IMG/VR virus record: IMGVR_UViG_3300030389_002958
Span: 1-37,427 of that record
Source of the DNA: a virus
Direction: 5' to 3' (one strand)
Length of the DNA stretch: 37,427 bases
Made by a program: the position numbers and the translations under genes. The notes below the pieces were generated by a model, which was not told the DNA's origin, ran no database searches, and worked only from the letters and a program-made list of their open reading frames with translations. This document shows positions 1,167-17,300 of the stretch, one piece after another (position 1 is the stretch's first letter; each line of letters opens with the position of its first letter).

Positions 1167-1535
1167 ATGAATATATCAAGTAAATTGTCGTTTAAAGAAG
1201 TACTAAATAAGTGTAATGATGTTGTCGATTTTATCGGTGACGACCAAAAAATAGTACTTGTTATTACTCCATGGGAAATAAATTATAATAATGAAGAGGC
1301 TAGTAGAAAAGTCGTTTATGAGTTAAATCGTAAAGGCTATCAACCTAAGCCTGAGTATGTAATATCGACTCAGTTCTTATCATTTCCTAATGACTCACTC
1401 GGACATAGTTCAGAAGATTATACGACTTGGTTTGGTGGTGGTCATTACTATAAAAATTATCAGGAAGCTTACAAAGATTATAAAGAAAATAATCGTGAGT
1501 TTTGGTTCACTGATAAAGAACGATTCAATGCTTAA
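1167..1535 (+). CDS. Small early protein, paralogue of the next gene
   Basis: A 122-aa acidic, aromatic-rich protein starting at ATG 1167 after AGTTGAGG. It shares an ordered pattern with the protein at 1618-1977: LxxxxVLxKCNxVVD, a hydrophobic strand (KIVLVIT versus KIVILAS), then TQFLSF/TQYLQF and an SEDYTTW/DEDYKTY segment followed by a lysine/tyrosine-rich stretch. They are tandem paralogues. No catalytic motif is visible and I do not recognise the family. As the first gene of the early arm it is a candidate host-takeover protein, by position only. Confidence 0.75.
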   Translation: MNISSKLSFKEVLNKCNDVVDFIGDDQKIVLVITPWEINYNNEEASRKVVYELNRKGYQPKPEYVISTQFLSFPNDSLGHSSEDYTTWFGGGHYYKNYQEAYKDYKENNREFWFTDKERFNA

Positions 1536-1617
1536 TGCTACATCGGAACACATCGCTATTGTGGTGTGTTCTAGTGTATTATTAATAGTGATAATACTTA
1601 ACATTGAGAGGAATAAA
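1533..1617 (+). promoter_or_regulatory. Two-hairpin leader, copy 1 (type B)
   Basis: The intergenic stretch is repeated almost entirely at 1975-2062. It folds as two successive hairpins: GAACACATC (1546-1554) with GGTGTGTTC (1563-1571), one G-U pair, and GTATTAT (1576-1582) with ATAATAC (1591-1597). It ends in a TTGAGAGGAA ribosome-binding segment before ATG 1618. Between the copies the stems are identical and the loops differ in sequence and length, as expected of selected RNA structure or a recent duplication. Confidence 0.7.
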
Positions 1618-1977
1618 ATGAAAAAAATTGATTCAGGTTTACCTGTTCTAGATGTGTTGCAAAAATGCAATGTAGTTGACGGCGAAAAAATTGTAATCTT
1701 AGCTAGTGATTGGACTATATCAGCTATCGGTTCAAGAATGAAAAGAGAAGTTCTTGCTGAATATTTAGATGAGTTTGTTGTATGGACTCAATACTTACAG
1801 TTCGATAGAAATGCTGATGAAGATTATAAGACTTATATGGATTCAGGTAAGTATAGTAGAGACTATGAAAGTGGTTTAAAATGCTTTCAAAGGCACATCA
1901 AAAACTACGATATAAAGTTATATGATTGTGTCGAAGTAAACCTAAGTTACAGACGTAACGACTTAAAAATTGATTAA
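1618..1977 (+). CDS. Small early protein, paralogue of the preceding gene
   Basis: The frame is open upstream to 1390, but ATG 1618 follows GAGAGGAATAAA at the spacing used throughout this region, and the region before it is the conserved leader, so 119 aa is preferred. The protein matches the 1167-1535 product in gapped alignment (LPVLDVLQKCN-VVD, KIVIL, WTQYLQF, DEDYKTY). Gene and leader together look like one duplicated unit. Function unknown. Confidence 0.75.
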   Translation: MKKIDSGLPVLDVLQKCNVVDGEKIVILASDWTISAIGSRMKREVLAEYLDEFVVWTQYLQFDRNADEDYKTYMDSGKYSRDYESGLKCFQRHIKNYDIKLYDCVEVNLSYRRNDLKID

Positions 1978-2062
1978 TGCTACATCGGAACACATCATTT
2001 TTTATGGTGTGTTCTAGTGTATTATTAATTAAGATAATACTTAACGTTGAGAGGAAAATAAT
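1975..2062 (+). promoter_or_regulatory. Two-hairpin leader, copy 2 (type B)
   Basis: This is the second copy of the leader at 1533-1617. Stems GAACACATC (1988-1996) with GGTGTGTTC (2006-2014), and GTATTAT (2019-2025) with ATAATAC (2034-2040), are kept, while loops change from GCTATTGT to ATTTTTTAT and from TAATAGTG to TAATTAAG. It ends in GTTGAGAGGAAAATAAT before ATG 2063. Confidence 0.7.
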
Positions 2063-2362
2063 ATGATTATTGATTATATTTTATTCGGTATTGTTGACAA
2101 TGCAGTAATGATTATTGGTGCATTAACAGGTAAAGAAATCGAGAATTTCTTACCTAAAAGATTCCAAAAAGGCACAGGTGCAGTCATCGGTGCAGGACTT
2201 GGAAATGCAGTTTCAGATTTTATGGGTGGCATTTCATCAGGTAATCTTGACCTAGCAGTTTTTACTGCAGTAGGTTGTCTAATTGGACTAATTGTAATAC
2301 CAATAGTTCTAGTTGGTAAGGCTAGATTTAAAGGTAGAAAGGCAGTTTACTCGACTAAGTGA
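2063..2362 (+). CDS. Small glycine-rich membrane protein
   Basis: A 99-aa protein with hydrophobic stretches at about residues 3-22, 38-56 (GTGAVIGAGLGNAVSDFMGG, glycine-zipper-like) and 64-86 (LAVFTAVGCLIGLIVIPIVLV), then a basic tail. It probably sits in the host inner membrane. Similar small proteins with a GAVIGAGLGNAVSD-type motif occur in marine phages, but I know of no assigned function. Its type B leader is the same as that of the upstream paralogue, so all three first genes share an expression signal. Confidence 0.75.
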   Translation: MIIDYILFGIVDNAVMIIGALTGKEIENFLPKRFQKGTGAVIGAGLGNAVSDFMGGISSGNLDLAVFTAVGCLIGLIVIPIVLVGKARFKGRKAVYSTK

Positions 2363-2390
2363 GTATAAATAGATGTTAGGCTTAGTGCGT

Positions 2391-2408
2391 TGACCTCTTC
2401 GGAGGTCA
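2391..2408 (+). terminator. Hairpin with UUCG loop upstream of leader A1
   Basis: TGACCTC-TTCG-GAGGTCA forms a perfect 7-bp stem capped by a UUCG tetraloop. No T-run follows, so it may be a processing or mRNA-stability hairpin rather than a strong intrinsic terminator. It occupies the same place, just ahead of a type A leader, as the hairpins at 3198, 4025, 4489 and 5093. Confidence 0.55.
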
Positions 2409-2415
2409 GGTCATA

Positions 2416-2450
2416 GAACTCATACAGTTTGAGTTCGCAGTTGAGAGGAA
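2416..2450 (+). promoter_or_regulatory. Type A structured leader, copy 1
   Basis: GAACTCA (2416-2422), loop TACAGTT, TGAGTTC (2430-2436), then GCAGTTGAGAGGAA up to 2450, six bases before ATG 2456. It is one of five copies in which the stem sequence changes with compensation while the loop and the segment after the stem are nearly fixed. Confidence 0.8.
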
Positions 2451-2455
2451 ATAAA

Positions 2456-2944
2456 ATGAGTAAAAATCATGATTGGTGGAAATTTTCCAACTCTTATAGA
2501 TTAAAAATCTATGATGAGAACAAAGAGAAAGAAAGACAAAAGTTAGGATTGAAATATTACAATATTCATCGTAATTGTCAGTTACAAAATGATGTACCAT
2601 TATCATCTGTTGAGCATTTCAGAATGATGAAACGTTTTGGTAAATACATCGCAAGTCTAGATAATAGAGTGTCTTTACGTAGCATACAAAAAATTAATAA
2701 AAATTGGTGGTATGAAGAAGACTTTTGCCATTTAGATAATTATTGTTGTGAAGTTTGGACAGAGATTTCATTTACAGTATTAGCTAAAGATTTTGACGAA
2801 GCTAATGGTATTATCGATTGGCATTATGGCAATGCAGTAGAGTATGATGATAAGAAGTATTCAAAGGTTTGCTTCGTTGATTTTAATTGTATGGATTACA
2901 ACGAAGAGTTTCATCAGGACGCAATATTAGAGGAGGTTAACTAA
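2456..2944 (+). CDS. Hypothetical early protein
   Basis: ATG 2456, after the type A leader, gives 162 aa; an in-frame upstream ATG at 2429 lies inside the leader hairpin and is rejected. The N-terminal part is charged and aromatic (KNHDWWKFSNSYRLKIYDENKE split by basic residues). The C-terminal half, about 95-162, has alternating strand-like stretches around EISFTVLAKDFDEANGIIDW, reminiscent of small domains in which a strand is followed by an EA-rich helix, also seen at 4281 and 4728. I do not recognise a family. Its stop overlaps the next start as TAATG-like coupling. Confidence 0.7.
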   Translation: MSKNHDWWKFSNSYRLKIYDENKEKERQKLGLKYYNIHRNCQLQNDVPLSSVEHFRMMKRFGKYIASLDNRVSLRSIQKINKNWWYEEDFCHLDNYCCEVWTEISFTVLAKDFDEANGIIDWHYGNAVEYDDKKYSKVCFVDFNCMDYNEEFHQDAILEEVN

Positions 2945-3186
2945 TGAGTGATAGCTGGATTAGTGAAAATGATAGAGCAATGGACATGGCTGACAATTGG
3001 GTTAGCCATGCCGACTCTAAAGGTATACAAGAAGAATGGCATGACGCTTATGACGGAGACGAAGAACCACAAGTCAAAAATATTGATGTTTGGATTCAAG
3101 TTTCTGCTGAGACGAACATGACATCTCAGGAAGTTAAACAATTATTATTAGATAAGTTAAACAAATTAGATTGGGAATTTGAATAA
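2944..3186 (+). CDS. Small acidic early protein
   Basis: An 80-aa, strongly acidic protein starting at the last base of the preceding stop codon (TAATG), so probably translated by coupling; GAGGAGG of the previous gene's end supplies a ribosome-binding site. The C-terminal half (NIDVWIQVSAETNMTSQEVKQLLLDKLNKLDWEFE, read in two pieces) predicts a strand-helix-strand unit. The acidic composition could fit a DNA mimic or inhibitor, but nothing specific supports this. Confidence 0.65.
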   Translation: MSDSWISENDRAMDMADNWVSHADSKGIQEEWHDAYDGDEEPQVKNIDVWIQVSAETNMTSQEVKQLLLDKLNKLDWEFE

Positions 3187-3197
3187 TATATCTACCG

Positions 3198-3223
3198 AGT
3201 ACATTGGCTCAGGTCAGTGTACT
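3198..3223 (+). terminator. Hairpin upstream of leader A2
   Basis: AGTACATTG (3198-3206) pairs with CAGTGTACT (3215-3223), 9 bp including one G-U, with an 8-base loop. It lacks a T-run. It lies 12 bases after the preceding stop codon and 19 bases before the type A leader hairpin. Confidence 0.5.
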
Positions 3224-3241
3224 TCATAGAAATATTAATCA

Positions 3242-3276
3242 GAACTGATACAGTTTCAGTTCGCAGTTGAGAGGAA
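3242..3276 (+). promoter_or_regulatory. Type A structured leader, copy 2
   Basis: GAACTGA (3242-3248), loop TACAGTT, TCAGTTC (3256-3262), then GCAGTTGAGAGGAA. Relative to copy 1 the sixth stem pair changes from C-G to G-C, a double compensatory substitution. Confidence 0.8.
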
Positions 3277-3280
3277 TAAA

Positions 3281-3727
3281 ATGAAAGATACGATAGATAA
3301 TACAATGCATGCAGAATACTCAGATGCTTCAACTAAGAATATTAAGTCTTGGGGAAAAGTTGTTAAGTACAGATGCACTAGAGATAAAGATATAACTTAC
3401 AATGTTAGGTTCAATCCTGAATTGTACAACATCACATTCAAAAGTGGTTATGACCAAGATGATTACATCATTGATAGAAACAGTAAGATTGTTAAAATCA
3501 TTAATCAAACATGTAAATTCTTAGAAAGAATAGACATCTTTACAAACCTTGTCGGTGATGATGCATGGTATGACCAATACAAAGAAGTAAGTATTTTTGC
3601 TGACGCTCCTGTATATGGTTCAGGTTACCATTTCAAGTTTAAAGATGAGGTAACTGCTCATGTTTTTACAAAAATCGTTAACACTCTAATAGCAAAGGAA
3701 AAAAAAGATGAAAAGAAAAATGATTAA
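3281..3727 (+). CDS. Hypothetical early protein
   Basis: A 148-aa protein starting at ATG 3281, four bases after GAGAGGAA. It is rich in Asp, Lys and Tyr with predicted strands (VVKYRCTRDKDITYNVRF) and a C-terminal helix ending in a lysine/glutamate tail (IAKEKKDEKKND). No known motif. The next gene starts inside its last codons in another frame, indicating coupled expression. Confidence 0.7.
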   Translation: MKDTIDNTMHAEYSDASTKNIKSWGKVVKYRCTRDKDITYNVRFNPELYNITFKSGYDQDDYIIDRNSKIVKIINQTCKFLERIDIFTNLVGDDAWYDQYKEVSIFADAPVYGSGYHFKFKDEVTAHVFTKIVNTLIAKEKKDEKKND

Positions 3728-4016
3728 AAGTATTAAGACCACAAGTCCTAGTAAAAAAATCGGTGTCATTATTGATGTATGGAAAGAAAAAAATAAATTA
3801 CAACAATATGATACATATGGTTTCATGGAGTTGGCACACATTGAAAGTGGTGGTAATCAATACTATAAAACTAGTAATTTACGATTCAATAATGACCTTG
3901 AATTATGTGATTACGATGGCAACTTTCCAAATGGTTTGCCAAAATATATCTTCCCAATTCTCAAGGAGAATGGATTCAATCCTGATGAAATTCAAAGTAT
4001 TGAAGAAGAAGATTAG
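3708..4016 (+). CDS. Hypothetical early protein
   Basis: A 102-aa protein beginning with a basic segment (MKRKMIKSIKTT), overlapping the preceding gene by 20 bases; an AAAGGA lies nine to ten bases upstream. The C-terminus is acidic (EIQSIEEED). An overlapping frame at 3763-4056 is a shadow, as it lacks a ribosome-binding site and breaks the leader arrangement. No family recognised. Confidence 0.65.
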   Translation: MKRKMIKSIKTTSPSKKIGVIIDVWKEKNKLQQYDTYGFMELAHIESGGNQYYKTSNLRFNNDLELCDYDGNFPNGLPKYIFPILKENGFNPDEIQSIEEED

Positions 4017-4024
4017 CATGGCAC

Positions 4025-4050
4025 GAACGGGTCGCTCCCGTTCCCAATTT
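4025..4050 (+). terminator. Terminator-like hairpin upstream of leader A3
   Basis: GAACGGG-TCGCT-CCCGTTC (4025-4043) is a perfect 7-bp GC-rich stem followed by CCAATTT. The same CCAATTT(T) tail follows the hairpins at 4489 and 5093, so hairpin plus tail is a repeated unit. The short T-run suggests partial termination or RNA processing. Confidence 0.6.
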
Positions 4051-4055
4051 AAATA

Positions 4056-4090
4056 GAGTTCATACAGTTTGAACTCGCAGTTGAGAGGAA
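4056..4090 (+). promoter_or_regulatory. Type A structured leader, copy 3
   Basis: GAGTTCA (4056-4062), loop TACAGTT, TGAACTC (4070-4076), then GCAGTTGAGAGGAA before ATG 4095. Compared with copy 1, pair 3 changes A-U to G-C and pair 4 changes C-G to U-A, both keeping pairing. This copy is the strongest single evidence that the RNA fold is under selection. Confidence 0.82.
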
Positions 4091-4094
4091 ATAA

Positions 4095-4280
4095 ATGAGT
4101 AAATCGATTAAATACATTAATGCCTGTTTCCAAATATTACTTGATAATATTTTTTTTGAAACAGATTACAAAGATGATGAGGGATATTATGTTAGACGTG
4201 TTAATAAAATACCCTCACAGTTAATAAAAGATGTAGAAGAAGCAATTGAACAAGCATTAAATGATGGAAGGAATAAATAA
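4095..4280 (+). CDS. Small early protein
   Basis: A 61-aa protein behind leader A3. Pattern: helix (SIKYINACFQILLDNIFFET), a short DDEGYYVRR turn, then a helix ending in EEAIEQALNDGRNK. No motif recognised. Its stop codon directly abuts the next ATG (TAAATG), so the two are a coupled pair. Confidence 0.6.
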   Translation: MSKSIKYINACFQILLDNIFFETDYKDDEGYYVRRVNKIPSQLIKDVEEAIEQALNDGRNK

Positions 4281-4472
4281 ATGAGTACATTTACGATACA
4301 TAGATTAGTAAGTAAGTGGGAAACTTACGAAAATATTGAAGCTTCAACAAAAGAAGAAGCATTAAAATTAGTAAGAGAAGAATTGTACAGAGATACAGAA
4401 GAATTAGACAAAGTTAAACAAACAATAATAGAGGAAATAATAGAGGAAAATAAATCTTGTCCTGTGAAATAA
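4281..4472 (+). CDS. Small early protein with EAST(K/S)EEA domain
   Basis: A 63-aa protein: strand FTIHRLVSKWETYENIEA followed by a helix STKEEALKLVREELYR and a charged helical tail. The strand-then-'EAS..EEA...A' layout resembles small DpnD/PcfM-like domains and recurs in the product of 4728-5084 (VEASSEEEAHEKAN). A ribosome-binding site GGAAGGA precedes it within the end of the upstream gene. Function unknown. Confidence 0.65.
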   Translation: MSTFTIHRLVSKWETYENIEASTKEEALKLVREELYRDTEELDKVKQTIIEEIIEENKSCPVK

Positions 4473-4488
4473 AATCATATACTGTTAT

Positions 4489-4519
4489 GACGTTCAGTTA
4501 AAAAACGTCCCAATTTTTT
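4489..4519 (+). terminator. Terminator-like hairpin upstream of leader A4
   Basis: GACGTT (4489-4494) pairs with AACGTC (4504-4509), followed by CCAATTTTTT. This has the look of a weak intrinsic terminator and shares the CCAATTT tail with the neighbouring modules. Confidence 0.6.
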
Positions 4520-4523
4520 AATA

Positions 4524-4558
4524 GAACTGATACAGTTTCGGTTCGCAGTTGAGAGGAA
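4524..4558 (+). promoter_or_regulatory. Type A structured leader, copy 4
   Basis: GAACTGA (4524-4530), loop TACAGTT, TCGGTTC (4538-4544) with one U-G pair, then GCAGTTGAGAGGAA and ATG 4562. Confidence 0.8.
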
Positions 4559-4561
4559 CAA

Positions 4562-4738
4562 ATGAAAAGATTACTAATAAAATTACTTATTAAAGTAAAA
4601 ACACTAACAATGGAAAATGAATATAGAATTGGTAAATTACTCCGAACACTTGATAGAAAACATAGTGATTTATGTTGTAATTTTACCGAGAAAATAATTG
4701 TTATCATTTCTAAATTAAGAGGAACAAATGAAAAATAA
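4562..4738 (+). CDS. Small basic early protein
   Basis: A 58-aa frame starting four bases after GAGAGGAA of leader A4. It begins with a basic amphipathic helix (MKRLLIKLLIKVKTL), and has one CC pair mid-protein. Its end overlaps the next start, and its last codons contain the next ribosome-binding site AAGAGGAA. The leader is the main support for it being a gene; function unknown. Confidence 0.6.
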   Translation: MKRLLIKLLIKVKTLTMENEYRIGKLLRTLDRKHSDLCCNFTEKIIVIISKLRGTNEK

Positions 4739-5084
4739 AACTAAGAATACATATACCATAAAAAAAGAAATAGATTTTTATGTGTATATAAAAGTAGAAG
4801 CATCAAGTGAAGAAGAAGCACATGAAAAAGCAAATGAATGTACCATTCGTTGTCCATTACATAATAATTATGTAGTAGAAGAAGTTTCATTTAAGGACTA
4901 CGTAGGAGATATGAGTATTACCTTAGATAAAGAAGAGTTTCTTTGTCCTATAAGTGATGAGTACTATGATAAATCCGATGCAGTTCTAGTCACACATAAA
5001 GGTGAGACGTTTGAAATTTCTGAGGACGCTTGGTACGACTTACAGTACGATAAAAATGAAGAATACAAACTTGTAAATTCATAG
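4728..5084 (+). CDS. Hypothetical protein with DpnD/PcfM-like N-terminal pattern
   Basis: A 118-aa protein starting six bases after AAGAGGAA-type sequence. Residues 9-40 read as strand (TIKKEIDFYVYIKVEA) then helix (SSEEEAHEKAN), like the 4281 product and like small DpnD/PcfM-type domains. The C-terminal half, about 45-118, is acidic with several short strands (CPISDEYYDKSDAVLVTHKG). It contains four cysteines without CxxC spacing. The domain likeness is weak and by eye only. Confidence 0.65.
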   Translation: MKNKTKNTYTIKKEIDFYVYIKVEASSEEEAHEKANECTIRCPLHNNYVVEEVSFKDYVGDMSITLDKEEFLCPISDEYYDKSDAVLVTHKGETFEISEDAWYDLQYDKNEEYKLVNS

Positions 5085-5092
5085 CCATAAAC

Positions 5093-5119
5093 GAGGGTGT
5101 GGCAACCCTCCCAATTTTT
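5093..5119 (+). terminator. Terminator-like hairpin upstream of leader A5
   Basis: GAGGGT (5093-5098), loop GTGGCA, ACCCTC (5105-5110), followed by CCAATTTTT. It is the best terminator-like hairpin among the five cassette hairpins. Confidence 0.65.
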
Positions 5120-5130
5120 AGATTTAAATA

Positions 5131-5167
5131 GAACTGATATAGTTTCGGTTCGCAAGTTAAAGAGGAA
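5131..5167 (+). promoter_or_regulatory. Type A structured leader, copy 5 (divergent)
   Basis: GAACTGA (5131-5137), loop TATAGTT, TCGGTTC (5145-5151), then GCAAGTTAAAGAGGAA before ATG 5172. The only copy with a loop change (C to T) and a loosened ribosome-binding segment. Confidence 0.72.
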
Positions 5168-5171
5168 TAAA

Positions 5172-5378
5172 ATGAAAATCGAATACAAAGAGAAGTCTGA
5201 CGTGATGGTACTTACATTACGAAAGTCTAAAGTTCACCCTGTTAGTGATACTCATTGTCAAATTATATTTGATGTTGAGCCTGACATGAGAGAATTATCA
5301 GAAATATATAATCATGTAATTATGCTCAAGATGGTTGATTCAGAAACAGACCGAGCCAAAGAGGGAGGTTTATTCTAA
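5172..5378 (+). CDS. Small early protein
   Basis: ATG 5172 follows the fifth type A leader, giving 68 aa; an upstream in-frame ATG at 5097 lies within the terminator-like hairpin and is rejected. The protein is strand-rich (KSDVMVLTLRKS, CQIIFDVEP) with no recognised motif. Its stop overlaps the nuclease start (TAATG), and GAGGGAGG inside its end is the ribosome-binding site of that nuclease, so the leader may control nuclease output through coupling. Confidence 0.65.
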   Translation: MKIEYKEKSDVMVLTLRKSKVHPVSDTHCQIIFDVEPDMRELSEIYNHVIMLKMVDSETDRAKEGGLF

Positions 5379-6418
5379 TGATAACATTTGGAGTTAGAGG
5401 TCTTATTGCAGATACATCTAATGATGATGTAAAAACATTGAGACCTGTTGTTGGTTCAGCAGTCAAGTTAGTTGCTGAGCCTGACAACAAGCATGATAAA
5501 AATGCAGTCGCAGTATATTGGAACAATCATAAATTAGGATATGTTCCTAGTATAAAAACTCTCCAAGAGTCATCACTTCATTATAAGATAGGCACAGTCC
5601 TGTCTTATGGTTATACTGAAGATGGTGGTAATAATTGGAATGATGAACATAAAGGTAAACTAGGTAGTGTTAAGATTGGTTTAGGTAAGGCTAAAGAAGA
5701 AGAAAATTTTTCTCCTGCAGTTGGACAATTAAAACCAAGAATATCTTCTATTCTAAGTTACCTGAATTATACAGGTAATGTCGATGGACTTATCAGGTGG
5801 GCATTTCAAAATGCTGACTCATTTGATGGTTATAAAAATGCATTACAAAAAACTGCTGACAAAGGTACTGAGGTTCATAAGGCTATAGAATGTTATATTA
5901 AATATAATGTCTTTAGAGATGGACTAGATATATTTGACCCTAAAGCACTACAAACCTACAAAGATTACAAGGGTGGTAAGTCAGGTCAAATGGCGTGTTG
6001 CAAAGATATTCCTGAGGGTTGGTTTAACTTTATGAAAAAATATAAAGTCAGACCTATCTCAATGGAAGAAAGACTTGTCGATAGCCAGTTAGGTATAACT
6101 GGACAGTATGATATGCTTGCTTACATTGAACATAAAGGTGTTGAAAAAGTTGCCATTATTGATTGGAAAACAAGTAAAAAAATTACTGATAAACATAGAC
6201 TACAGTGTTCATTCTATGTGAAGACATGGTATAACAATGTTTCTCAATATACTACTCCTGTTGGAATGGTTGTTGCCTTTGGTGGAAATAATAAACAGGG
6301 TTATTCTTGTAGTATTGTTGATTGGGACGAGTGGCATAATTATTATATTGCAGTGTCTCGTCTTAAAGATGCACTTGATATATTGGGTGTTAAATTTCCA
6401 ATGGAGGCATTAGCATGA
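5378..6418 (+). CDS. HIRAN domain fused to a PD-(D/E)XK nuclease
   Basis: A 346-aa protein. Residues 3-60 look like a HIRAN domain (FGVRGLIADT..., LVAEPDNKHDKNAVAVYW, KLGYVPS), a fold that binds DNA ends or stalled-fork structures. Residues about 115-330 look like a RecB/Cas4-type exonuclease: GTEVHKAIE helix, then YDML (Asp near 245), IIDWKTSKK (Asp262, Lys264) and Q-x-x-x-Y of motif QCSFY. It probably trims or recombines phage DNA and sits at the head of the replication block, upstream of the helix-turn-helix protein, helicase and SSB. The next gene overlaps by ATGA. The catalytic fold is confident; the HIRAN call is somewhat less so. Confidence 0.8.
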   Translation: MITFGVRGLIADTSNDDVKTLRPVVGSAVKLVAEPDNKHDKNAVAVYWNNHKLGYVPSIKTLQESSLHYKIGTVLSYGYTEDGGNNWNDEHKGKLGSVKIGLGKAKEEENFSPAVGQLKPRISSILSYLNYTGNVDGLIRWAFQNADSFDGYKNALQKTADKGTEVHKAIECYIKYNVFRDGLDIFDPKALQTYKDYKGGKSGQMACCKDIPEGWFNFMKKYKVRPISMEERLVDSQLGITGQYDMLAYIEHKGVEKVAIIDWKTSKKITDKHRLQCSFYVKTWYNNVSQYTTPVGMVVAFGGNNKQGYSCSIVDWDEWHNYYIAVSRLKDALDILGVKFPMEALA

Positions 6419-8643: not shown

Positions 8644-9318
8644 ATGAGTAGAACAAATCCAGTAGAAGAAACTACATCAGTACAAAATCCAACAACTGCA
8701 TTTATTGAATGGAATGCACAGAATGGACAGTTCAAGATGTGGGATAATATTAATAAGCAAGTAAGCTTTCTAGAAAAACCAATGCGTTTTGCAGTGCTAG
8801 ACCAAATGTCTAGTGTTGAGGGTTGGTTAGGTGATAGAGGCACTGCTTATTCAACAGGCTTCAGACAATCTAATGAAGATATTTCTGTCTATGTTAGAAA
8901 AGATGGAAGTCAAACTTTACATAAAAGAGGTACATACTCTGATATTAAAGATGAACTAAAAGATGAGGGAATAACATATCGTAAAAATATTTATGCAATG
9001 TTATGTGAAGATATAGATGATGTACCTATTGGTAGTATTGTTTGTATTAAGTTAAAAGGAAAGTCTGCTAACCTTTGGATAGAGGGTAAGTATGGTGACA
9101 ATTCTGATTTAACTAATAGTTCAGTTCAAACTATAGGTAGATTTAAATATCCTGTTTGGGAAAGTATTGAACTATCAAAAGATGAAATTGAAAATGCAAA
9201 AGATTGTGATAAAGAACTTCAAGAATATTTTAATTCTTTAAATCATAATGCAACTTCACATCAAGATGAGTCTGTTGAAGCCATTAAAGATGACATGGCT
9301 GAAGAGATACCATTTTAA
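8644..9318 (+). CDS. Single-stranded DNA-binding protein
   Basis: A 224-aa protein with a strand-rich core (residues 15-160: FIEWNAQNGQFKMWD, RFAVLDQMSSVEGW, IYAMLCEDIDDVPIGSIVCIKLKGKS) and an acidic disordered tail ending DDMAEEIPF. That ending mirrors the (D/E)-(D/E)-I-P-F tip by which SSB proteins recruit partner enzymes. The core resembles OB-fold single-strand binders of marine phages rather than E. coli SSB. It probably coats replication intermediates and feeds helicase, nuclease and NinG. It is preceded by AAAGGAG, ten bases upstream of ATG. Confidence 0.7.
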   Translation: MSRTNPVEETTSVQNPTTAFIEWNAQNGQFKMWDNINKQVSFLEKPMRFAVLDQMSSVEGWLGDRGTAYSTGFRQSNEDISVYVRKDGSQTLHKRGTYSDIKDELKDEGITYRKNIYAMLCEDIDDVPIGSIVCIKLKGKSANLWIEGKYGDNSDLTNSSVQTIGRFKYPVWESIELSKDEIENAKDCDKELQEYFNSLNHNATSHQDESVEAIKDDMAEEIPF

Positions 9319-9377
9319 AGAAACGACAGAGTATGACTGTATCAATGAATAACTTATTCAAATCTCAACGAGGAGTT

Positions 9378-9409
9378 GCCTGACCCTTTCATATGTCAGG
9401 CTTTTTTTT
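9378..9409 (+). terminator. Strong hairpin-T8 element between SSB and ninG
   Basis: GCCTGAC (9378-9384) and GTCAGGC (9395-9401) form a perfect stem followed by eight T, a textbook rho-independent terminator. The T-run runs directly into ATG 9410. A GAGGAG at 9370-9375 lies just before the stem, so folding would bring it to about ten bases from the start codon. It may therefore both attenuate transcription and set up translation of ninG. Confidence 0.85.
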
Positions 9410-9853
9410 ATGCCTAGAAAACGTACAATTAAATCAGCAAAAAAGGGTGCTTGGGATATGTTCTCAAAATACATTCGGCTCAGGGACTCAATCGCTACTA
9501 CAGGAACAACAGATAGATGTGTATGCGTAACATGTAAAGATACTGTTCCTACTAAATATTATAAAGGATTTAACACACTGCAAGCAGGACATGGTATTGC
9601 AGGAAGAAGTAAGAATATTTTATTTGATGAGGATTTAGTTTATGGTCAATGCCAATCATGTAATTGTATTCATGGTGGAAGACTATCAGAGTATGCAATA
9701 TTCCTGATAGATAAATATGGTAAAGAATGGTTTGAAGAAAAATGTTTTATATCAAGAAAGCCTGCCGAAACAAGATGGTCTATTCAGGAGTTAGATGAAA
9801 TTAAACAAAAGTACAAAGATAAATATGAGGAATTATTAAATGAACACAGATGA
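9410..9853 (+). CDS. ninG: NinG/Rap-family recombination nuclease
   Basis: A 147-aa protein. It has KKGAWDMFSKYIRLRDS at 11-27, a cysteine pair CVTC near 38-43, LQAGHGIAGRSKNILFDEDLV, and CQSCNCIHGGRLSEYA. These are hallmarks of lambda NinG (Rap), an HNH-like zinc protein acting on branched recombination intermediates. Length is shorter than lambda NinG (about 200 aa). The ATG directly follows a terminator T-run with no adjacent Shine-Dalgarno; the downstream ATG at 9458 would cut off family-conserved residues, so 9410 is kept. Confidence 0.82.
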   Translation: MPRKRTIKSAKKGAWDMFSKYIRLRDSIATTGTTDRCVCVTCKDTVPTKYYKGFNTLQAGHGIAGRSKNILFDEDLVYGQCQSCNCIHGGRLSEYAIFLIDKYGKEWFEEKCFISRKPAETRWSIQELDEIKQKYKDKYEELLNEHR

Positions 9854-11222: not shown

Positions 11223-11238
11223 GAATTTAGTTATAACT

Positions 11239-11286
11239 CGTTCAACCTGTATGGTCGGAAGTAGGTCAAAGTGACTGAAGGAACGC
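11239..11286 (+). promoter_or_regulatory. Glutamine-II riboswitch (Downstream-peptide type)
   Basis: P1 is CGTTC (11239-11243) with GAACG (11281-11285). A short P2 is ACC/GGT (11245-11247, 11253-11255). The conserved core CGGAAGTAGG (11256-11265) overlaps P3 GGTCA/TGACT (11264-11268, 11272-11276), followed by GAAG and GAACGC. The order P1-P2-CGGAAGUA-P3-CUGAAG-AACGC is the glutamine aptamer layout known from cyanobacterial glnA and Downstream-peptide RNAs. A GGGAGG site and a very short frame follow at once, as in that class. It probably senses L-glutamine and so host nitrogen status; the direction of control is not visible. Confidence 0.85.
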
Positions 11287-11306
11287 TAACATTGGGAGGT
11301 CTATCA

Positions 11307-14365: not shown

Positions 14366-17300
14366 TTAAAATAAGTTACCTGATGACCCTCCTCCTCGTC
14401 TGTTACTTTGATAAACGCTAGAACCTATTCCAAAGAACTCAGGAATTGCTAACATAGCACCCTCTGTAAGAGTAAGTTCATTCATATAAGCATCTCTAAC
14501 TGTTTGTAATATAATTGGTGTTAATGCATCACCAACTGCTTGTGGTACTGAAATATCTTCTCCTGTAACCCAATCCTCACCATATAATAATTCATGAGTA
14601 ATACCAAAAGGAGGAGATAATTTATATTTAAAAAATGTTGCTACGTTTTGAAAGTTACGATTAACAGAGTCATCATCAACGCCATATTTAATTGCTCTTG
14701 CTATAACTCTCATTGGTTGTTGAACACCACCCCAAATATCCCATCGCATATCATCTATTCTAATTTTACCCCAATCTGCTTCTTCAGGGTCTTCTTCTAC
14801 TTCTGCACCTGCTAATGATGCTAATGCTAATATTACTGCACCTGTACCTAAGAACGCTAACCAAGTTGTCATTAAGTCTTGTCTTAACTCAGGATACTTT
14901 TTATATTTATATATTGACGATGGTGCTACTTGTATTCTAGATGCAGTAAATCTTGGTGAAAATAATACTGTAGATAATATATCAGTTGCTCTTCCTAAAC
15001 TTCCTAAGTCACCTCTACCTGTTGCAATATTAATAAAGTTCATAAATGACTCTTGTGCTTCTACACTTAGTACTCCTGTACGTTGATGTCTTTCTAAGAA
15101 ATCTACTGCTACACCAACTCTTAATAAGTTAATATATCCAACATAATGTCTTTCTGACATTTGTCTTATTTCTCTAAATACAGGTATTCTATCACCTAAG
15201 TTAGAAGAGAAAGCTTCTTCACCTTGTCTTACTCCACCACCTACTTCAGGTAAGAATAATCCTAGTGCTTCTAAATCATATTTTCTTGCTTGCTCTCTTA
15301 CAAACAAATCTATTTCTTCAGCAGTTGTACCACTAAAGAATGACATAAACGATTTATTCCATTTATCTCTAAACGCAGGATTTTTTGCTAATAATACTGG
15401 TAAATATCTAGGTGTTAATATTAGTCCTTGTCTAAGTATTGCTGACATATCTGCCATTGTTAATGCTAAACGAGGAAAACCAATAGCATCAGCAATTTGA
15501 TATTTATATAATTGATATTCTTTTCCTGCTATTTTAATTGGCTTACCGACTTTATTTTTTTCACTACGTTGAGTTATTTTTCTTAATCTTGTATTTATCT
15601 TTTCTTTTAATGCATTACGTTTTTTAGTTAGTTCTAATATTTTTAATGTCTTAGGTCTAGATTTCTTAGGTTTAAGTAATGTACTATAATCTTCTTCGTC
15701 AATAATTCTTTGTAACTCTTTTATTTCAGCTTGTAATCTAAGCATTTGTTTTAGTTCATCTAGTTCTGCTAATGCTTCTTCTACAAGTTCTTGTCTTTCA
15801 CCTTGAGGTATATTCTTTTTACTAAATGTAGCAGTTGTATTTTTTAACTTTTGTATCTTTTGTCGTATAATATCTAAGTCTTGGTCAGTGACAATATTAG
15901 TGACAGACAGTGACAATGTTTCTAATGTTTCTTGTAGTTTATCTAACTCTGCTATAAATTGATTTACTGTTTTTATACTAGTTGTTTTCTTACTAAGATT
16001 AAATAATTCTTTTGCAAGTTTAGAAACACCAGTCTCTGCATTTGCAGATATTTTAATTAGTGATAATACTGCAATATACTGTTTCTTTAAATCAAATGCA
16101 GGTAATGTATTATTAGCAATAGCAGTTAATATTTGTTGTCTAGTATAATCTTCTCCTAATACATCTTGTATACCTTTTACAATATCATCAATAGAAACTT
16201 GTATTCCGTCTTCAACACCATTCAATATAATTCTTTCAGCAAGTCTTGCTATAAATACATCTTCTCTACCCTCATAGTTTGCTAAATCTAAAAACCCTGT
16301 TTTAAATCTATCATCAGCAATCTTTTGTTCTTTACCACCAAATACACTAAATATTTTTGCACTTACTTTACCAATTTTACTTGATATATCTTCCCAACCT
16401 TGTGCTATTTTTTCTCTAAACTTCTCACCTTTTTTACCTGTTTGAGTAGCTTGGTTATATATATCTTTTACATATTCATCAACTTGGTCTTCTACAGTTG
16501 TATCTACTGCATCATTAACATCATCTATTTCATCTTCTACTTCTTGTATATTTCTAAATGTATCATTAATAAAATCAATATCTTCTTGTGTTATAGAGCC
16601 ACCTAATGCTGACATAGCTTTTCTTACTATTTCTTCAAAGTTTGATGCTCCTGACAACCATCTTCTTGTTATCAATGTTGTACCACTTATACTTCCTATA
16701 ACAATCATAGCAGAAGCCAAATCATCTATTCTTTGAGATACATTATCTAACTGTGCTTGTGTAGCTTCGAGTTCATCATTATCTGTAGAACGTTTTTGTT
16801 CTAGGTCTTTACGTAATTGTTTTTGTGTTTGCCTTAAAGCACCCATAACTGCACCTATACCTGCTTGTATGGTTGCATTAATTCTAGCTTCATCAGGATT
16901 AGATAATATAATGACTGCTTCTTTAAGCATGTTTTTAGCCAGTATATCAATTCTAAATACACCATCTGCATCTCGACCAAATAAATCTATAGCATTTTGT
17001 AATAGTTGATTTACAGAAGTGCCACCATTAGTAAAGTCTTCAGGATTTAAACCAAAGTCAGCCATACCACCGAATGTAAAATCTATATCATCTATTTCAC
17101 TATCAGGAGTTCTTTGTTCTCTTCCATCATCAAATATAATTTGTTTTGTTTCTTCAGGAAATAATTCTAATTGTTTTGTAGGATTTTCAGCAAGGTCAAT
17201 AGGAACTGTAACTACAGGTCGTAGCCGTTCAGAGTCAGAAGATTTTCTGTAGTTAAGTCGTCCCCGAACATTTCCATCAATGTCTCTTGACTCTCCACGA

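Follow-up and report, generated by a model that had tools for sequence, protein, structure and literature searches.

The early genes of the marine phage recorded as IMG/VR IMGVR_UViG_3300030389_002958 (positions 1 to 37,427; this whole stretch of 37,427 nucleotides (nt) is hereafter the window) are preceded by leaders built around a real RNA hairpin with the conserved loop UAYAGUU, which no Rfam family fits. With a probability of roughly 0.6, these leaders represent modular cassettes for the processing of messenger RNA (mRNA), whereby an upstream cutting element, the UAYAGUU hairpin and a strong ribosome-binding segment would be joined at the borders of small early operons. Five of the leaders, before the genes starting at 2456, 3281, 4095, 4562 and 5172, had already been noticed in a sequence-only reading of the window, which considered translation or processing control. 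That reading did not include the pistol ribozyme, the long duplexes found ahead of other leaders, the presence of a leader in every early intercistronic gap or the related leaders of genes 1618 and 2063 with another loop. The coordinates of the leader elements are given in Table 1.

All five leaders of the sequence-only reading were present with the stems that it listed, each paired at 7/7 positions and with folding energies from -6.6 to -7.3 kcal/mol. As it had described, pairs 3, 4 and 6 change on both sides, pair 5 shifts once from U-A to U-G, and the loop is UACAGUU in four copies and UAUAGUU in the fifth. Both window stems compared with shuffled sequences, those of copies 1 and 3, were more stable (z = -3.6 and -3.3). 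The combination of loop, seven arbitrary nucleotides and the ribosome-binding site (RBS) segment occurred four times without mismatch in the window versus none in 100 shuffles. The accompanying claim of a fixed RBS segment directly before the start codon stands in part: four copies follow the pattern, but the fifth carries a diverged segment, GCAAGUUAAAGAGGAA instead of GCAGUUGAGAGGAA, and 3–6 nt separate the segment from the start codon. The distance from the hairpin to the ATG is 17–20 nt in all five leaders. None of the 4227 Rfam families matched over hairpin copies 1–4, even at a permissive setting, in line with the earlier failure to place the element in a known RNA family. A Pseudomonadales-1 RNA call at 5039–5151, covering copy 5, is noise (17.4 bits versus a gathering threshold of 68). 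A kissing partner for the UACAGUU loop (AACTGTA) was found on the + strand only far off, at 17204 and beyond.

Further copies of the hairpin were sought in viral contigs. A looser pattern matched in two contigs only. One, L006, is the window's own genome, running from the window end into its start; the other, L005/L007 (IMGVR 3300030108_002775), is a relative whose early genes are rearranged and which shows about 95% identity over much of the shared parts. The relative carries six hairpin copies, each followed by a gene. A core-only scan added one true copy beyond this lineage, in contig L084 (IMGVR 3300039049_000129), whose hairpin, GAGUACA-UACAGUU-UGUACUC, is Watson-Crick paired at 7/7 positions, has arms unique to this contig and lies 22 nt upstream of an ATG with a different RBS. 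The L084 contig holds other phage genes, including an open reading frame for a 610-amino-acid terminase-like protein, and for its early part no DNA match was obtained within the phage collection. The remaining matches of the scans were chance-like, with all 62 background matches of the last scan pairing at just 3–6 of 7 positions. Only chance-like matches came from the bacterial and archaeal genomes scanned, and no such hairpin was present in the 40 inspected leaders of gene 2063 homologues from other contigs. The covariance model proposed in the sequence-only reading, built from the five window copies alone, recovered 6/6 copies of the relative and the L084 copy (E-value 1.4e-6), the next match having an E-value of 0.56. 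Pairing and loop, the two properties by which that reading was to be judged in related phages, are kept both in the relative and in the unrelated L084.

The covariation set comprised 12 copies, 10 of them distinct (five from the window, six from L007 and one from L084). In this set, 70 of 70 cells are base-paired, two-sided changes occur at four of the seven pairs (3, 4, 5 and 6), and pairs 1, 2 and 7 are invariant. The covariation score was 0.571 compared with 0.240 ± 0.051 after shuffling (0/500) and at most 0.140 with the partners slid, whereby most copies are paralogues and the cells are thus not independent events. The same limit underlies the idea that a single leader was recently duplicated and drifted, the hairpin being a passive passenger and the covariation a result of gene conversion or of the shared ancestry of a few arm types. 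Indeed, the copies are mostly paralogues from two close genomes with only about six arm types, hence few independent events. However, these arm types differ by paired changes, with zero unpaired cells, and the unrelated phage contributes a new fully paired type, GAGUACA/UGUACUC, as opposed to 0/62 fully paired background matches in one scan, which leaves such passive descent very improbable. Since the arms are compensated, the loop is fixed, and the element lies in sense orientation next to the RBS, it is an RNA hairpin rather than a DNA operator, as had been argued from the five copies.

Hairpin copy 1 is directly preceded by a match to the pistol self-cleaving ribozyme (RF02679) spanning the full model, 1–68 of 68 positions. 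Two pistols in L007 (46.8 and 46.2 bits) are likewise positioned before hairpins, and the three sequences differ through paired changes in P1 and in the following stem. Judging by the cut site established for pistol ribozymes, cleavage would be expected between G2410 and U2411, only 5 nt upstream of hairpin copy 1, so that the downstream RNA would start with UCAUA and continue into the hairpin. All three copies (3/3) keep a loop CUAAG that matches a junction CUUAG, as read from their sequences, a feature reported for this class (PMC4604425). The family match is solid, and self-cleavage may be expected from it. Of the options raised earlier, processing control fits well, given that a pistol stands immediately before hairpin copy 1 here and before two of the L007 copies. 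The first 14 nt of the pistol (2349–2362, a P1 strand) overlap the last codons of the upstream coding sequence, and ribosomes completing that gene could influence the folding of the ribozyme.

A fixed loop between compensated arms would likewise be predicted for a DNA hairpin promoter of the type used by the virion RNA polymerase of phage N4, in which a DNA stem-loop extrudes and each copy starts a short-leader transcript. The promoter hairpins of N4 have 3-nt loops, as opposed to 7 nt here, and a pistol located 5 nt upstream implies read-through RNA. A protein of 2683 amino acids encoded in the structural block could be considered as the polymerase, but its sequence matched no RNA polymerase in Pfam, PHROGs or PDB, with such enzymes being divergent and the searches weak. 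There was also no PF00940 match in the genome, a search that was silent in every control genome as well. Nor did any known promoter or operator match the element, which had been named as the outcome to watch for, again with weak RNA-polymerase searches. An N4-type promoter is therefore very unlikely.

The arrangement of pistol, hairpin and RBS has a close synthetic parallel. In the RiboJ insulator, a 23-nt hairpin lies between a ribozyme and the RBS (PMC6206723), and in both cases the order is ribozyme, hairpin of about 21–23 nt and RBS, with cleavage giving, or here predicted to give, a defined hairpin 5' end. The phage leader differs in being natural, in having a pistol instead of the sTRSV hammerhead and a fixed-loop hairpin, and in being repeated with only one of the window leaders containing a ribozyme. 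What sets this pistol apart within RF02679 is that it opens a fused leader ending in a conserved hairpin and RBS, with sister leaders nearby that have other upstream elements.

Three of these sister leaders, those of genes 1618, 2063 and 3281, contain long, nearly continuous duplexes with small symmetric mismatches, each within an intercistronic gap. In the relative, the homologue of the 3184–3238 duplex keeps its fold (z -7.4) with an altered middle and loop. A search of viral contigs with the duplex sequence returned this lineage only, plus one chance match. The duplexes have the shape of RNase III sites, and cutting by this enzyme is suggested by that shape. In phage T7, RNase III cleaves the early mRNA at five sites, which yields mono- and dicistronic messages (PMC4858673), and the present early polycistronic region would similarly be split at intergenic duplex hairpins. 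As opposed to T7, its upstream elements are mixed and include a ribozyme, a standard hairpin and RBS follow each of them, and the RNase III cutting is a prediction. In L007, at 1230–1310, a long-duplex leader in apparently degenerate form immediately precedes a pistol leader, as though one type of cutter had taken the place of another.

The leaders of genes 4095, 4562 and 5172 have, instead, short hairpins that are weakly better than shuffled sequences and are followed by an identical CCCAAUUU. Within it, AA^UUU agrees with RN^WUU, a motif of RNase E (PMC5222698) that is frequent in AT-rich RNA, so cutting by RNase E after these hairpins is at best weakly suggested.

The placement of the leaders follows the gene borders. 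Seven intercistronic gaps of 78–94 nt exist between 1535 and 5172, each with one leader (7/7), and all other gene junctions up to 8578 abut or overlap. The leaders therefore delimit small operons, each comprising one or two genes except for a longer last one. Across them the hairpin is preceded by three kinds of differing, unrelated elements, and for this reason the leader looks modular.

Sense-orientation hairpins repeated through an early operon might also be an antitermination signal (nut- or put-like), the upstream hairpins being intrinsic or attenuated terminators. A terminator scan called three leader structures, including the GC-rich 5093 hairpin with its U-rich tail. However, their U-runs are offset or weak: the one at 5093 is offset by CCAA, and the long duplexes continue with AGUGUAUUAU. 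By comparison, the terminator-like hairpin at 9318–9410 is followed by eight Ts, which suggests that ordinary terminators are used by this phage, and no such direct T-run is present at the leader hairpins. Moreover, neither the pistol nor the long duplexes are terminators, and no boxA-like partner was recognized. Antitermination is thus considered improbable.

In the processing interpretation preferred here, a polycistronic early transcript would be cut in each intercistronic gap: before gene 2456 by the pistol ribozyme, whose family match is observed and whose cleavage is predicted from it; before 1618, 2063 and 3281 probably by host RNase III at the long duplexes; and before 4095, 4562 and 5172 perhaps by RNase E just downstream of the GC-rich hairpin. 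The products would be messages of one, two or a few genes with the shared hairpin a few nucleotides from the 5' end. Such a hairpin would be expected to slow decay that starts from the 5' end and to leave the RBS accessible. Stabilizing 5'-terminal stem-loops are known for ompA and papA (Emory et al. 1992; Bricker and Belasco 1999, as listed in PMC3997798), and the position of the phage hairpin, a few nucleotides from the expected 5' end and upstream of the RBS, is similar, whereas its loop is fixed, it occurs in several copies in a phage, and its stabilizing effect is presumed. In addition, a factor from the host or the phage probably binds the loop, since a hairpin acting merely as a block would not require the loop to be fixed. 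Taken as an analogy, processing resembling that of T7 with a natural RiboJ-like end seems the best reading.

Several points weigh against this reading. The pistol is the sole cutter with a family match; the involvement of RNase III and RNase E is deduced from shape and short motifs, and matches to RN^WUU are frequent in AT-rich RNA. The whole case is built on sequence. A hairpin that merely blocks would not account for the fixed loop, and the L084 hairpin stands before an RBS without a visible cutting element upstream. Finally, a general link between phage pistols and a following 5' hairpin is not convincing: a first count of 14/58 versus 7.6% suggested some excess, but in a stricter test a hairpin followed in 5/14 mRNA-like cases (one of them an L007 copy), with a shuffle mean of 2.1 and 11/200 shuffles at least as high.

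The hairpin could alternatively be a translational operator, at which a host or phage protein would bind the UAYAGUU loop beside the RBS and jointly repress or activate a set of early genes, the upstream structures being unrelated. The fixed loop, the compensated arms, the 17–20 nt to the start codon before several genes and the ribozyme-free copy in the unrelated L084 agree with such an operator, and a precedent exists in gene 43 of T4/RB69, with a hairpin operator and a conserved UAAC loop near the RBS (PMC3014915). In contrast to that system, the present hairpin is repeated before several small genes, is linked to a ribozyme and has no known binding protein. An operator alone would also leave unexplained both the pistol cut 5 nt upstream (3/3 cases) and the long duplexes in the other gaps. 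As the sole explanation it is rather unlikely, and it is compatible with processing as a further layer. A wider proposal, put forward tentatively and with less than even confidence, is a new RNA element family, in which the 21-nt hairpin with the UAYAGUU loop would be a standard 5' end of early mRNA in unrelated phages, placed behind interchangeable cutters (ribozyme, RNase III-type duplex or RNase E-type site) and read by a dedicated loop-binding factor.

Ribozymes of the pistol and hammerhead classes have long been observed close to phage genes, their function there being unproven. In the window, a pistol is so placed that cleavage would provide a phage mRNA with a defined 5' hairpin, and sister leaders of the operon carry this hairpin end behind other elements. 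This arrangement offers a concrete candidate role for phage ribozymes, the maturation of early mRNA, and would be a natural counterpart of the RiboJ insulator.

Table 1. Positions of leader elements in the window and of hammerhead-like motifs in other genomes.
Feature	Position	Strand	Remarks
Long imperfect duplex hairpin, RNase III-site-like, leader of gene 1618	1533–1584	+	-24.3 kcal/mol, z -7.5
Possible AU-rich 5' hairpin GUAUUAU/AUAAUAC, other loop	1576–1597	+	then AUUGAGAGGAA and ATG 1618; suggested by sequence
Long imperfect duplex hairpin, RNase III-site-like, leader of gene 2063	1975–2027	+	-22.3 kcal/mol, z -6.9
Possible 5' hairpin like that at 1576–1597	2019–2040	+	then GUUGAGAGGAA and ATG 2063; suggested by sequence
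Pistol self-cleaving ribozyme (RF02679)	2349–2415	+	Rfam 66.8 bits, gathering 34.5, E-value 3.2e-10
5' hairpin copy 1	2416–2436	+	GAACUCA-UACAGUU-UGAGUUC, then RBS segment, ATG 2456
Conserved RBS segment GCAGUUGAGAGGAA(A)UAAA	2437–2455	+	common to leaders at 2046, 2440, 3266, 4080 and 4548
Long imperfect duplex hairpin, RNase III-site-like, leader of gene 3281	3184–3238	+	-23.0 kcal/mol, z -7.3
5' hairpin copy 2	3242–3262	+	GAACUGA-UACAGUU-UCAGUUC, ATG 3281
GC-rich hairpin and CCCAAUUU, leader of gene 4095	4025–4050	+	possible RNase E site RN^WUU; z -2.6 for 4017–4050; weak
5' hairpin copy 3	4056–4076	+	GAGUUCA-UACAGUU-UGAACUC, ATG 4095
Hairpin and CCCAAUUU, leader of gene 4562	4489–4519	+	possible H-type pseudoknot ACUG/CAGU; z -1.1 for 4478–4522; weak
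5' hairpin copy 4	4524–4544	+	GAACUGA-UACAGUU-UCGGUUC, ATG 4562
Hairpin and CCCAAUUU, leader of gene 5172	5093–5120	+	possible H-type pseudoknot GCCA/UGGC; z -2.0 for 5082–5115; weak
5' hairpin copy 5	5131–5151	+	GAACUGA-UAUAGUU-UCGGUUC, ATG 5172
Type II hammerhead-like motifs	L008:563–621, L008:2325–2378, L107:686–744, L109:20–78, L109:497–556, L132:1692–1750, L132:2398–2453		motif search

The leaders of genes 1618 and 2063 also carry a UUGAGAGGAA segment and a possible 7-base-pair hairpin with another loop, and variants of the RBS segment were present at 1603 and in the leader of gene 5172. In each of these two leaders the hairpin shares a strand with the long duplex, the two structures being mutually exclusive (as noted at 1576–1597). 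Cutting could therefore switch one into the other, which at this stage is a conjecture drawn from the pairing. In the leader of the first early gene, UUCCUCUCUCAACUUU at 1069–1083 is complementary over about 9–10 base pairs to the RBS segments of its own and all other early leaders. The duplexes (-11.6 to -15.2 kcal/mol) were matched by only a few of 300 random 26-mers, and UUCCUCUCUCAACUUU might act as a sequestering or trans-acting antisense element.

Among viral contigs, 72 contained pistol cores, and several of these had three; in L060, L070 and L074, for instance, three pistols each precede successive small genes of other phages. A motif search detected seven type II hammerheads, against none in shuffled sequences; most lie immediately upstream of an RBS and start codon, in early leaders of pelagiphage HTVC109P and of the marine contigs L107, L109 and L132. 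At the gathering threshold, Rfam did not report the hammerheads of L008, L107 and L109, and the distant pelagiphages HTVC100P, Lederberg, HTVC035P and Greip gave no Rfam matches. The biological function of hammerheads in bacteria and phages is unproven (PMC3088659). Like the pistol leader, these hammerheads place a ribozyme before the RBS and start of small genes, with a product beginning with a hairpin, stem I; they belong to another ribozyme class, and their hairpin is part of the ribozyme itself. A twister call in the window at 1112–1178 is noise (20.5 bits versus a gathering threshold of 39.9, E-value 1.3), with its 3' strand inside a coding start. As for the window as a whole, L006 links its end to its start, and the window is therefore probably a complete circular or circularly permuted genome. 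A glutamine riboswitch aptamer (RF01739) is located at 11237–11289 on the + strand (48.2 bits), with a counterpart in the relative L227 at 5687–5739 on the - strand.

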